Positions 7,532 to 13,310 of a DNA stretch of 33,585 nucleotides are shown here, piece after piece. Numbering within the stretch: position 1 is the stretch's first letter; the number at the start of each line of letters is the position of its first letter. A model generated the notes under the pieces. The model was given only the letters and a program-made list of their open reading frames with translations. It was not told the origin of the DNA and did not search any database. The position numbers and the translations under genes are program-made. Source of the DNA: Bacteroidaceae bacterium (GTDB lineage Bacteria > Bacteroidota > Bacteroidia > Bacteroidales > Bacteroidaceae). Location: positions 1 to 33,585 of the forward strand of contig JAFUVZ010000003.1 of NCBI GenBank assembly GCA_017471185.1, read 5' to 3'.

Positions 7532-10249
7532 CTAATGCTTGCCAATCTCTGATGAAGGATAGTTGTGGAACACTGGAGGTGCCCCATGTTTCACTTTGCT
7601 TTCAGGTAGTTTCTCTACATAATTGCGGGTGATAACCTGCAAGTTTTTCTTGTCATACTGCAAGAATGAGTCAAAGCTATAGTTCTCTCCAGCCAACTCC
7701 ATCAGGCGCTGATATATCGCCCAACGGCTGGGAGCATTATAAGCACCCACATTGTCCCTCATTATACTGTTAACAGTCGGTCTGTATATGCCGTGGGTAT
7801 AGTTCGCATAACCGCCCTCATATACGCCAATAGACTCAACGGCATAGTCTGGGTTACTAATAAAGTCAGCCCAAAGCACTTCTGATGGATTGCTGTGATA
7901 ATCCACATTCATGTACCAGTTCATATTGTGCATGTTGTCAAGATCAGACCAACTGCTTTTCGGGAATGCTGTATCAGATTGGTCATCAGCCCAATACTCG
8001 TCTGCCAGATGACCGAAGCCGTGTCCGCCAATTTCGTGGTTGATCTCTTCCTGCATACCCTCAGAAACAGTACAAAGCCCTATAGAGAAACCGTCATCAT
8101 ACATGTTGCAATATACCCTGCCCCCACTCACAGCATCATTGAGGATTACAAGGGCAGTAATATTGTTCAAATCAGCCCTCCCAAGGTTGTTCATGATGAA
8201 ATTAGCGACAGCATCCACGTTGAAATTATATTTGTCACCAGAAACCTTTGTACCGAATTGGGTATCAGCTCCGATAACTGCATTCTTGGAAACTGCAGAA
8301 ACAGCGTACACATCAAAATAATCTCGATAAGTAGCATAAGGTTCCTTGGCAAAGAAATATTCAGTAGCCTTATCAGCGTAGTTGTCAAACGTACCGTCAG
8401 CAATCAGTCTGTCAGTAAAGGCATCGCCTGTAATGACGAGTTTGATGCCATTGCCCTTGGTATGATTCTGAATCTCCCTAACATTACCGTCTTTTGAGAA
8501 ATCGGCTGAGGTGTAAAGCCCCTCAATAGTCAGTCCATATCCGTCACGCTGTGACATAGAGACTTGTACTTGGCTCCACCAGTCGGACTTATACATCTTT
8601 TCAGTGATGGTACCGCTCATGCAGTTGCCAGATATATTCATCCAAGTCAGGTTAGACAGGTTCATGAATGAATCAGGAATACCCCCCGTAAGCTGGTTCC
8701 CTTCCAGATAAATGCCTTCCAGGCTCGTCATGTTGCCCATCGATGCAGGCAGGTCGCCCGAGAGATTATTCCATCTTACCATGAATACCTTTAGCTTCTT
8801 CAGATTGCCAATGCTTTCTGGTATTGATCCAGACATTTTGTTTCCGCACATCCTGATGTCCTCCAGACTCTCCAGATTGCCGAGGCTTTCTGAGAAACTG
8901 CCAGAGAAGCTACAGAATGCGATAGAAACGATTTCCAGTTCTTTCAATGTATAGAAACTCTCAGGAATCGGTCCGCCAATCTTTGAGCACTGGTACAAAC
9001 CTAAATAATACAGATGAGTCAAGTCACCGATATTATCTGGCAAAGAGCCTGATAAGCCTGTATTGGAACTCAAGTCTAAGCCTCGCAGTTCTGTAAGTGT
9101 CCACAATTCATCAGGTATGCTGCCCGATAGTTTGTTATCGCCTAAGTAGAGATAATGCAGATCCTTCAGTCCACCAATGCTTCTCGGTATATATCCAGTC
9201 AGATTATTATTGTTTAAATTCAATCCATAAAGCGTGCCGTCATAAGCTGTCAATACACCATGCCATTCACTGATAGGTTTGTCACTGCCCCAGTTGGTGT
9301 TGTCTGTCCAGTTATCACCGCCTGTAGCATCATAGAAATTCATCAGGATAGATCTGATATCTTCAGCCACTTCTTGCTGTGCATCCAGTTCTGCATTCAC
9401 ATCGATCAATGCGAAATTCCTTACCTGTGCACGTTCAACGACCAATTTATTGGTAGTGGATTTGCTGACCTTATAATCATTCCCACTTGAGTCAACACCT
9501 TGGATGTCGATGGTAAATCCATTTTCAAAAGTTTGGGGAGGAACATAGAAATAGATGTCTTTAGTTTCAAATTCCTGATTATTTTTGACAAAAGAAACAG
9601 AGATGCCTGTGTACTTCTGATGATTGGCATCATCGTAGAAGTGGAAGACAGGAGAGCTTTCTGACAAATCTATGTAGCCATCTCCTGCGACATACTCACC
9701 GTTATTACTTCGGAAAGTAACCTTGGTGATTTTAGCGACATTGCCAATCTCCACATGAATCATACCAGTTACCTGCTTGAAAACAAAGTTATTGTCAGCA
9801 CTAACAGCCACCATTGGTGCGTGATGAGGGTAACCATAATCCTTATGAGACACTCCATTCATTGTGATATTCAGTCTGTTTGAGCTCTGCTCATCCAACG
9901 AACAGTTCCAACCTGCCGTGTAGACAGCATAAAACTTATTGCCACTCACCTCATCGCCCCCGAATGTAGCCACATTGTTCTCTATGCCAGACATACTATA
10001 TTGGACTAATTCTTGCTGAGTATCACTTGACAAATAGATATAATCATCATTGTCCCAAACTACCGCTTTGCCACCTGAAGCCGCATCAGCCAAATGGGCA
10101 CGGGTAGTTGCTATTTCACTGATGGTAGCCTTAGCTGTAGTGAATGAAGTCAGCTTCTGTTGCGGTTGAACTTCTTTTGTGAAATCATCGTTGGAGCAGC
10201 CAGCTAACAGCAATAAACCTGCTACAATTCCAATATATTTATTCTTCAT
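7532..10249 (-). CDS. Exported lipoprotein: fimbrillin-like domain, leucine-rich repeats, M64-type metallopeptidase
   Basis: A 905-residue three-part surface protein. Residues 1-18 are a lipoprotein signal (GLLLLAGC, Cys18, then SNDDF, acidic residues typical of surface export). Residues about 30-290 form a fimbrillin/Mfa-like beta domain homologous to that of the upstream gene. After a capping segment (NFYDATGGDNWTDNTNW, 304-320) come eight to nine 23-24-residue repeats (about 336-548) of the type LxxLxLxxNxLSGxIPxxIGxL. The C-terminal third carries a zinc-peptidase signature, HEIGGHGFGHLADEYW (738-753), as in IgA peptidase M64 proteins. The first two histidines are one residue further apart than in HExxH. 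A rare strong Shine-Dalgarno, AGGAGG, precedes the ATG. A role in binding and cleaving host or bacterial glycoproteins is inference. Confidence 0.9.
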   Translation of the reverse strand: MKNKYIGIVAGLLLLAGCSNDDFTKEVQPQQKLTSFTTAKATISEIATTRAHLADAASGGKAVVWDNDDYIYLSSDTQQELVQYSMSGIENNVATFGGDEVSGNKFYAVYTAGWNCSLDEQSSNRLNITMNGVSHKDYGYPHHAPMVAVSADNNFVFKQVTGMIHVEIGNVAKITKVTFRSNNGEYVAGDGYIDLSESSPVFHFYDDANHQKYTGISVSFVKNNQEFETKDIYFYVPPQTFENGFTIDIQGVDSSGNDYKVSKSTTNKLVVERAQVRNFALIDVNAELDAQQEVAEDIRSILMNFYDATGGDNWTDNTNWGSDKPISEWHGVLTAYDGTLYGLNLNNNNLTGYIPRSIGGLKDLHYLYLGDNKLSGSIPDELWTLTELRGLDLSSNTGLSGSLPDNIGDLTHLYYLGLYQCSKIGGPIPESFYTLKELEIVSIAFCSFSGSFSESLGNLESLEDIRMCGNKMSGSIPESIGNLKKLKVFMVRWNNLSGDLPASMGNMTSLEGIYLEGNQLTGGIPDSFMNLSNLTWMNISGNCMSGTITEKMYKSDWWSQVQVSMSQRDGYGLTIEGLYTSADFSKDGNVREIQNHTKGNGIKLVITGDAFTDRLIADGTFDNYADKATEYFFAKEPYATYRDYFDVYAVSAVSKNAVIGADTQFGTKVSGDKYNFNVDAVANFIMNNLGRADLNNITALVILNDAVSGGRVYCNMYDDGFSIGLCTVSEGMQEEINHEIGGHGFGHLADEYWADDQSDTAFPKSSWSDLDNMHNMNWYMNVDYHSNPSEVLWADFISNPDYAVESIGVYEGGYANYTHGIYRPTVNSIMRDNVGAYNAPSRWAIYQRLMELAGENYSFDSFLQYDKKNLQVITRNYVEKLPESKVKHGAPPVFHNYPSSEIGKH

Positions 10250-11759: not shown

Positions 11760-11805
11760 AGTATTTAGTTGTTTAATGTCCTGAAGATAAAACTCTCCAC
11801 TTGTG

Positions 11806-11813
11806 CAAATTTA
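11806..11813 (-). promoter_or_regulatory. -7 box for the paralogous lipoprotein operon
   Basis: On the minus strand the sequence reads TAAATTTG, matching TAnnTTTG, 46 bp before the ATG at 11759. No clear TTTG is visible at the -33 distance. It would drive both fimbrillin-like lipoprotein genes. Confidence 0.55.
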
Positions 11814-11951
11814 ATGAATTATTTGGATAGAGTGTTGCTTTTAATGTTTTTTTCCCCTCCAACTGCATTTTTATCATGTTTCCCCCTAATAGCTTTGAAA
11901 TGTACTATGACGCATTGACATAAAATAATGGCACGTTGTTGGTTCACTCTT

Positions 11952-12015
11952 GCATACTGTTTGAGCGAACGAAAAGCATGCTTAGGGTATGCTTACTGGC
12001 TGACTAAGGCATGCT
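11952..12015. other. Mutually exclusive inverted repeats in the long gap
   Basis: GCATAC (11952-11957) can pair with GTATGC (11987-11992). GCATGCTTAG (11976-11985) can pair with CTAAG-G-CATGC (12004-12014), with one bulged base; the left arm is itself part of the palindrome AAGCATGCTT. The two stems overlap, so only one can form at a time. No promoter or reading frame tells which strand is transcribed. Confidence 0.4.
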
Positions 12016-12091
12016 AAAAGCATAAAATATCACTTTTTTTGAAAAAAAGACAAGTAGATATTTGGAAGTTCGGGAACTTATCTTAACTTCG

Positions 12092-12225
12092 CGCCGCATT
12101 GGAATGATGGACCGAACTTTTATTCATTCATAACAATGAAGTTTCCGAACTGATGATCTGTTCGTAAATCATCATTGGTTCATTCAAACAATGCGGTGGA
12201 GGGGTGCATGGGCATCCCTCCTTTC
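12092..12225 (+). ncRNA. Candidate structured small RNA with terminator-like 3' hairpin
   Basis: Closing stem: CGCCGCATTG (12092-12101) with CAATGCGGTG (12189-12198), ten pairs including one G-U. It is stacked on GAATGA (12102-12107) with TCATTC (12180-12185) and ACC (12111-12113) with GGT (12177-12179). Inside are two hairpins: AACTT/AAGTT with CATT/AATG (12115-12143), and TGATGAT/ATCATCA (12151-12174). A ten-pair GC-rich hairpin follows, GGAGGGGTGC (12198-12207) with GCATCCCTCC (12212-12221), loop ATGG, then TTTCC. The upstream TATCTTAACTTC (12079-12090) could be a weak -7 region. The minus strand could fold similarly, so strand and transcription are inferred. I recognise no Rfam family. 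Confidence 0.45.
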
Positions 12226-12375
12226 CATTTGACGTACACCAGTGTCCACTGAATAAAATTAAGAGTTTGATTCAGAGTCCTAAGAACCGTGAGTCTTCCT
12301 CCAGAAGAACAGCATAAACGCAGCAACGTTGAGGCGGCCATGTTCCAGTACAGAACTTATAATGTTGGCAAAAAG
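12180..12375. other. Possible transposase relic or conserved non-coding segment
   Basis: In the plus frame from about 12280, codons read PPEEQHKRSNVEAAMFQY (ending near 12351). The NVEA-xx-FQY part resembles the C-terminal region of some Bacteroidota DDE transposases, but TGA stops interrupt the frame upstream (near 12252 and 12270) and no other transposase part is present. On the opposite strand a 53-codon frame runs 12341-12180, starting MAASTLLRLCCSSGG; it has no signal, domain or ribosome site I can support. The two readings compete with the RNA interpretation of the neighbouring bases. The remainder of the 11760-12434 gap holds no gene I can support. Confidence 0.3.
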
Positions 12376-12376
12376 T

Positions 12377-12407
12377 TTTGCCATTTCATAAAAAATGCAT
12401 TTCTTTG
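12377..12407 (+). promoter_or_regulatory. rfbA promoter with palindrome over the -33 box
   Basis: TTTG (12377-12380), 19-bp spacer, TTTCTTTG (12400-12407), one mismatch from TAnnTTTG, 27 bp before the rfbA ATG. The -33 box sits in the palindrome GGCAAAA-AG-TTTTGCC (12367-12382), which could be an operator. The promoter position rules out the longer upstream start at 12378. Confidence 0.65.
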
Positions 12408-12434
12408 TACGCTAATAAGAAAAACAGACTGTTT

Positions 12435-13310
12435 ATGAAAGGTATCATTCTTGCAGGTGGCAGTGCCACCAGGCTCTATCCTCTCTCTAAGGCAATCTCC
12501 AAACAGATTATGCCCGTGTATGATAAGCCTATGATTTATTACCCTCTGTCAACGCTCATGCTGGCTGGCATCCGTGAGGTGCTTGTCATCTCTACGCCTC
12601 GTGATTTGCCTATGTTCCGTGACCTGTTGGGCACGGGTGAAGAACTGGGCATGAAGTTTGAATATAAGATTCAGGAGAAGCCTAACGGACTGGCTCAGGC
12701 TTTTGTGCTGGGAGCTGAGTTCCTGAACGGAGAACCTGGTTGCTTGATTCTGGGTGATAACCTGTTCTATGGACGTGGGTTTGGCAGTATGCTGAAGAAC
12801 GCGGCTATGATTGAACGTGGCGCATGCATCTTCGGCTATTATGTGAAAGACCCTCGCGCTTATGGTGTCGTAGAGTTTGATGCAGATGGAAAGGCTGTCT
12901 CATTGGAAGAAAAGCCAACTGTTCCTAAGAGCAATTATGCTGTGCCAGGCTTATATTTTTATGATAATACGGTTACTGCCAAGGCTGCTTCATTAAAGCC
13001 ATCTGCCCGAGGCGAATATGAAATTACTGACCTAAACAAACTTTATCTTGAGGAAGGAACACTGAAGGTAGAAGTGTTCGGACGCGGTTTCGCCTGGTTA
13101 GATACAGGTAATAGTGACAGTTTGCTGGATGCCTCTAATTTTGTGGCTACCATTCAAAAACGTCAGGGTATGTATGTGAGTTGTATTGAGGAAATCGCAT
13201 GGCGTAACGGATGGATTAATACGGAGCAACTGAAGGCACTGGGCGAAAAACTGAGTAAGACAGCTTACGGACAATACCTGATAGACCTTGCGAAAAACCA
13301 TAAAGCCTAA
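12435..13310 (+). CDS. rfbA: Glucose-1-phosphate thymidylyltransferase
   Basis: Makes dTDP-glucose from dTTP and glucose-1-phosphate, the first step toward dTDP-rhamnose and related surface sugars. The 291-residue length is normal for RmlA. Visible are the nucleotide-binding loop [12 protein letters not shown] (8-19), [28 protein letters not shown], the metal-binding LGDN (Asp108), and [10 protein letters not shown] near the C-terminus. The ATG at 12435 was chosen over 12378 because the promoter ends at 12407 and residue 1 then begins MKGIILAGG, as in the family. rfbB follows after 29 bp in the same direction. The genes rfbC and rfbD are not in the window. Confidence 0.96.

Follow-up and report, generated by a model that had tools for sequence, protein, structure and literature searches.

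The locus and its predicted transcript

The window, that is, the whole 33,585-nt stretch of DNA analyzed here, belongs to a 2.76-Mb draft genome that is 80% complete (G000). As a sequence-only reading of this DNA had described, a 675-bp gap lies upstream of rfbA (Table 1) and holds a strongly structured segment: positions 12060-12260 of the forward strand fold at -63.2 kcal/mol (z -4.28), with 0 of 200 shuffles as good, and the same check on the reverse strand also gave -57.9 kcal/mol (z -3.52, 0/200). Restricted to the predicted transcript (12091-12226, forward strand), the fold reached -53.7 kcal/mol (z -5.70, 0/200), and the body minus its terminator scored z -3.90 (0/300). Judged from its sequence, 12092-12226 very probably encodes a real small RNA gene, hereafter RNA-A.

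The -7 element that had been picked out just before the closing stem is well placed, being separated from the upstream TTTG by 19 nt, and TTTG-N19-TAnnTT(T/C)G recurred in all seven RNA-A promoters checked. TAnnTTTG is the consensus for Bacteroides-type promoters quoted in the part of PMC7366714 available to us. The same motif occurs 5' of tRNA-Pro (L028) and tRNA-Val (L035) genes and is therefore of a general type; both loci, returned by pattern matching, were rejected as RNA-A relatives because they are tRNA promoters. At the other end, the ten-pair terminator-like hairpin seen in the initial reading was recovered in the minimum free energy (MFE) fold, followed by a short T-tract of only TTT. 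Both internal hairpins were likewise recovered. Nine of the ten pairs proposed for the closing stem formed in the MFE; the tenth (12092-12198) could form, but 12198 belongs to the terminator hairpin. The inner stem, read as carrying two three-base bulges, was instead predicted as an uninterrupted run of ten pairs that follows a 4x4 loop. The initial reading had matched this segment to no RNA family, and Rfam gave no useful match: no family, 6S RNA included, reached its gathering score in the window, and the three matches at E <= 5 across 11800-12440 involved only eukaryotic families, none with E below 0.95.

Two further stretches lie between RNA-A and rfbA. Positions 12235-12353 have short matches to G086:C22 and G123:C28 and are possibly insertion-sequence remnants, and 12361-12425, directly 5' of rfbA, resembles an rfbA promoter; G063 and G069 preserve it at 85% identity across 52-67 nt.

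Table 1. Features of the RNA-A locus, in window coordinates.
Feature	Position	Strand	Details
Gap	11760-12434		675 bp, flanked by a leucine-rich-repeat protein gene and by rfbA
A-tract and GACAAGTAGATATTTG	12040..12064	+	Includes the -33 element, TTTG (12061-12064); common to RNA-A relatives
-7 element TAACTTCG	12084..12091	+	Consensus TAnnTTTG
RNA-A (predicted small RNA and probable RNA-B sponge)	12092..12226	+	Ends approximate; from fold and full-length relatives
Closing stem	12093-12101/12189-12197	+	MFE, 9 pairs
Inner stem	12106-12115/12175-12184	+	MFE, ten unbroken pairs past a 4x4 loop
Site 1, ATTCATTCATAACAATG	12122..12138	+	Exact complement of RNA-B CAUUGUUAUGAAUGAAU
Two internal hairpins	12123-12128/12135-12140, 12141-12153/12157-12169	+	MFE
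Site 2, TTCATTCAAACAATGC	12179..12194	+	Pairs with the same RNA-B seed, one bulged base
Terminator-like hairpin and TTT	12198..12224	+	10 pairs, 12198-12207/12212-12221, MFE
rfbA/rmlA	12435..13310	+	NTP_transferase, E 2.3e-71; neighbor outside the proposed system

Relatives of RNA-A

Relatives were sought by BLAST of the gap against 158 genomes of the genus (short matches), some of which were read by locus. Five RNA-A sequences (window, G069, G071, G053, and G099) were used to build a search model, R2, which added G065 and G082 as full-length RNA-A. The copy in G063 is partial, G000:C31 and G063:C37 match only the first half of R2, and the R2 search found no RNA-A in G097 or G100. Among the matches listed, RNA-A was found in none of ten outgroup genomes at E < 1e-6, and the exact motif was absent from the outgroup R2 matches L224, L225, and L226. 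BLAST of the window's own genome found no second full copy, and 12040-12360 had no match among plasmids. Three further pattern matches (L029, L030, and L036) were dropped as relatives.

The relatives have an A-tract-GACRAGTARATATTTG-N19-TAnnTTTG promoter, an otherwise unlike downstream sequence that keeps ATTCATTCATAAC, and a terminator hairpin at the end. What they retain besides promoter and terminator is the motif AUUCAUUCAUAACAAUG, whose 17 nt are exactly complementary to the seed of another RNA (RNA-B, below); these complementary sites had been missed by the initial reading. The three-way junction in which that reading placed the stems did not prove to be a conserved feature. Across the seven relatives, the terminator helix was paired in 90% of cells, the inner stem in 73.2%, and the closing stem in 43.5%, the least of the three. 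Covariation, which had been suggested as a check on the closing stem, was not convincing for the proposed stems; the closing stem showed both-sided change at three of nine pairs, and the score over all 29 pairs beat 500 of 500 shuffles, yet pairs slid by +3 scored higher than the true ones (0.220 vs 0.200). RNA-A bodies folded better than shuffles (p < 0.05) in five of the seven relatives, and the excess of long-range closing pairs over shuffles reached p < 0.05 in just two of them, G099 and G082. A structured noncoding RNA, on the forward strand and equipped with a promoter and a terminator of its own, is supported; a conserved junction is not. The neighbors of RNA-A are aroB (G065 and G069), a sigma-factor gene (G071 and G082), an lptF/lptG-family gene (G053), and rfbA (window).

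RNA-B, a predicted partner RNA

A search with the pattern WTTCATTCATAACAAT matched 14 of the 158 genus genomes, the matches comprising RNA-A, unrelated places, and ten loci on the opposite strand that define RNA-B. RNA-B is predicted to be ~80 nt long. It comprises a GUUCCAA-loop-UUGG hairpin at the 5' end, the largely single-stranded seed GCAUUGUUAUGAAUGAAUUAAUUG, and a terminator. Nine of the ten loci have the promoter and the tenth follows a tRNA. Across the ten rows, the seed and 5' hairpin were near-invariant and the terminator sequence variable, the identity of the seed being a product of selection since its core was the search pattern. A model of RNA-B, R1, found it in 10 of 158 genomes at E <= 1.1e-6, which were taken as the RNA-B genomes, and in 43 of 158 at E <= 0.01; the 33 genomes with weaker matches (E up to 0.01) were kept outside this set, G076 alone among them being read. 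R1 was used for searching only, its RNAalifold structure differing from single-sequence folds. Nine weaker R1 places were read, of which L101, L102, and L105 look like diverged RNA-B copies and L103, L104, L106, L107, L108, and L081 were dropped, having mainly the terminator in common. Full-length RNA-A occurs in 7 of the 10 RNA-B genomes, five of which supplied R2 and two of which were found by it. At the RNA-B loci L055, L067, and L069, only the tRNA family reached its Rfam gathering score.

Beyond the genus, a draw of 399 genomes of the family (E <= 1e-5) placed RNA-B in G000 and in G158, a member of another genus. An RNA-B variant near an M15-peptidase-like gene, whose Pfam matches fall just below the cut-offs, has near-identical surroundings in these two genera (L066 ~1475-1550, G053:C19:27245-27319; L241, G158:C7:366-440), and by eye a similar copy lies beside a similar protein end in G099 (L128). 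With L055:1400-1570 as the query, RNA-B matched two plasmid records (39% and 23% of the query) and one phage record (38%). A 24-base RNA-B pattern occurred in no viral contig, and a 17-base pattern occurred in 13, none with RNA-B surroundings by eye.

One of the two RNA-B copies in G000 lies directly 3' of a tRNA-Gly gene. G069 has a diverged copy after tRNA-Gly and a related segment after tmRNA, and copies in these positions (L069 1456-1612; L101 133-290; L142) appear as if released from stable-RNA trailers. In G065 and G099, RNA-B is flanked by a GH20 gene and an aspartate-alanine-exchanger-like gene, divergent to the GH20 hexosaminidase-family gene at L063 and L057. Competence in Vibrio is induced by chitin, so a regulatory link between RNA-B and GH20 is conceivable.

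Predicted pairing between RNA-A and RNA-B

Same-genome duplexes of RNA-A and RNA-B were predicted at -29.9 to -38.3 kcal/mol in six of seven genomes, each being matched by 0 to 4 of 1000 RNA-A shuffles. The exception was G082 (-18.0 kcal/mol, z -0.6, 233/1000 shuffles as good), where the seed of the best RNA-B copy is shortened (AUGAUGAA). The radC, HhH (a helix-hairpin-helix gene), and comM sites of this genome are unchanged, so no in-step change of partners was seen; a search of G082 for compensating changes among RNA-A, RNA-B, and targets found none. Beyond the seed, pairing in G069 and G099 also involves the RNA-B 5' hairpin. Besides its main site, the G099 RNA-A (L141) carries AACAATTAATTTATTC, a possible second one that, with one G.U pair, is complementary to a different part of RNA-B.

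The window copy offers RNA-B two predicted sites, an exact 17-nt complement and a second with one bulge, which alone pair at -22.0 (12116-12142, site 1) and -23.7 kcal/mol (12174-12197, site 2). In the MFE of free RNA-A, site 2 is paired within the stems and site 1 is partly paired. Among 13,418 40-nt segments of the 33.6-kb window, the RNA-A sites ranked third and fourth for pairing with RNA-B, behind those at 8636 and 8641 on the reverse strand. These fall at 8636-8680, inside a gene of the LRR/M64-peptidase family, where pairing with RNA-B (-31.4 kcal/mol) is probably due to chance.

The 12 transitions counted in 19 variant sites are A>G or C>T changes without exception, with T>C absent, and each of them can still pair through G.U. 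The same sites hold 23 transversions, and these disrupt pairs if no bulge is permitted. That such G.U-keeping changes reflect RNA pairing is suggestive only, because the 12 transitions collapse to five locus-position classes.

Motif sites before transformation genes

The exact 12-mer TTCATTCATAAC occurred at 37 sites in the ten RNA-B genomes vs 4 for its reversed control. Thirteen of these sites are RNA-B copies or variants and six lie in RNA-A; another 15 are just 5' of a possible start codon, and the last three are inside open frames of 136, 242, and 980 codons. The start-codon sites precede radC (six), HhH (six), comM, a PDDEXK_2 gene, and a 30-codon ORF (one each), the Pfam families being RadC, an HHH_3 protein, ComM/YifB, and a PDDEXK_2 protein. 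In Riemerella anatipestifer, also of the Bacteroidota, transformation requires a helix-hairpin-helix protein and is reduced in YifB mutants, according to the part of PMC8459023 available to us; the HhH gene found here is a candidate counterpart of the former.

Upstream sites were then scored as ungapped changes from the 12-mer. A radC match was present in 26 of 30 genomes (none in G000, G063, G071, or G064), an HhH match in 21 of 24, and a comM match in 23 of 24. The radC site differed by 0-1 changes in 7/7 RNA-B genomes having the gene and by 3 to 6 in 20 outgroup loci. The HhH site differed by 0-1 changes in 7/7 RNA-B genomes and by 2 to 5 in 13 outgroup loci, where the 200-nt stretch was counted from the first aligned residue (query residue 1-29), so that the true start may lie up to ~90 nt further upstream. 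For comM, 9 of 10 RNA-B genomes had 0-2 changes (G082 exact), G000 had 3, and 13 outgroup loci had 3 to 6, with G101 and G010 the best (3). No outgroup locus passed the same cut-offs (radC 0/20 at <=1, HhH 0/13 at <=1, comM 0/13 at <=2). These counts leave out L171 (radC, G043) and L215 (HhH, G076), and they ignore kinship among the RNA-B genomes, which are related to each other and hence are not independent trials. Moreover, radC and HhH were chosen through their exact sites; radC in G053, HhH in G100, and 9 of the 10 comM sites did not come from that search.

In G000, radC and HhH were not found in the 80%-complete draft. Its comM site, with three changes, is by this count no better than the best outgroup loci; it abuts the ATG and pairs with RNA-B at -17.1 kcal/mol. 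In the same genome, a PD-(D/E)XK transposase-family gene (G000:C52:17515; L132 1501-1512) carries an exact RNA-B site 11 nt 5' of its ATG, and this leader pairs with RNA-B at -30.9 kcal/mol, the predicted pairing spanning the start codon.

Proposed function of RNA-A and alternatives

On balance, we favor the reading, drawn from sequence features, that RNA-A is a sponge for RNA-B and that RNA-B is a trans-acting sRNA silencing radC, comM, and HhH. RNA-B would pair with TTCATTCATAAC at the ribosome landing site just 5' of the three start codons, where it would probably block translation. One or more copies of this motif occur in RNA-A, oriented as in the target mRNAs; through the motif RNA-A could therefore pair with RNA-B and not with the mRNAs, and would compete with the transformation mRNAs for RNA-B. 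When RNA-A is made, RNA-B would be titrated and the transformation genes translated. Promoter, terminator, fold, and complementarity can be read from the DNA, as can the sites kept in RNA-B genomes and unseen in the outgroup read; transcription, repression rather than activation, titration, and an effect on natural transformation are what we infer. The direction, repression and its relief, would follow from the position of the sites and from known sRNAs. Several observations count against this reading: the G082 exception, the three RNA-B genomes in which no full RNA-A was found, the occupation of site 2 and part of site 1 by the free fold, the short T-tract of the window copy, the poor comM site and missing radC and HhH of G000, the transversions among the variant sites, the better-pairing segments at 8636 and 8641, and the kinship of the RNA-B genomes.

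An unlikely alternative is that RNA-A is itself a target or regulated partner of RNA-B and acts through its fold, not as a titrating decoy. Pairing alone is directionless, and since five of seven RNA-A bodies fold better than shuffles, the scaffold may matter; however, fold details and neighbors vary among relatives where the RNA-B sites persist, and RNA-A has three such sites in G065 and two exact ones in G069. It is less probable still that TTCATTCATAAC is a protein-binding site, RNA-A a protein sponge, as CsrB is for the protein CsrA, and RNA-B an antisense RNA to RNA-A. The motif does occur both at start codons and in RNA-A, but conservation in RNA-B extends beyond the motif, pairing in G069 and G099 runs into the RNA-B 5' hairpin, and the A>G and C>T changes preserve pairing.

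An ordinary structured 5' leader of rfbA, to which the position of RNA-A upstream of that gene on the same strand would point, is very improbable given its own terminator-like hairpin followed by 200 nt of gap, the rfbA-adjacent stretch kept in G063 and G069 without RNA-A there, and the other copies adjoining aroB, a sigma-factor gene, and an lptF/lptG-family gene. We give equally little credence to a folded mobile-element remnant or functionless chance fold: the reverse strand folds too and 12235-12353 may be insertion-sequence remnants, but the copies in six other genomes retain the promoter spacing, the terminator, and the RNA-B site, and BLAST found no other full copy in its own genome.

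Comparison with known RNA regulators

The closest analogue of RNA-B, if it acts as a silencing sRNA, is RocR of Legionella pneumophila, which with the chaperone RocC post-transcriptionally represses comEC, comEA, comFC, and comM, and homologues of which also occur on mobile elements (PMC7811196, seen in part). Like RocR in that account, RNA-B would pair near the starts of several transformation genes, comM in both cases; it has predicted complementarity to the 5' regions of radC, HhH, and comM. By analogy with RocR homologues, the RNA-B variant with near-identical surroundings in G053 and G158 may travel on a mobile element. In contrast, RocR, compared here with RNA-B by description, belongs to another phylum and has no sponge mentioned in the available part of PMC7811196. 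Bacterial sRNA sponges are mentioned as a class in the portion of PMC7366714 available to us; RNA-A resembles them in carrying predicted target-like sites for an sRNA and differs in its sRNA, its host group, and its putative titration. FopS/GibS sRNAs of Bacteroides thetaiotaomicron, as described in part of PMC11697453, share with RNA-B a Bacteroides promoter, a single-stranded seed, start-codon pairing, and several paralogues, but target polysaccharide-utilization genes, unlike the transformation-gene sites of RNA-B. The literature matches listed, which cover few subscription papers and preprints, contained no report of competence in Bacteroidota being controlled by an sRNA or a sponge.

We tentatively extend the sponge reading, with rather less confidence, to a post-transcriptional RNA switch for natural transformation in Bacteroidota that would be convergent with RocR: an sRNA silencing comM, radC, and HhH, opposed by a sponge that is maybe an inverted copy of the sRNA, an idea based on the extended pairing with the RNA-B 5' hairpin in G069 and G099. 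If true, this would be a second, independent case of sRNA-run transformation, RocR-like with a built-in RNA antagonist, and would provide a concrete, testable RNA circuit deciding the timing of DNA uptake in these bacteria.
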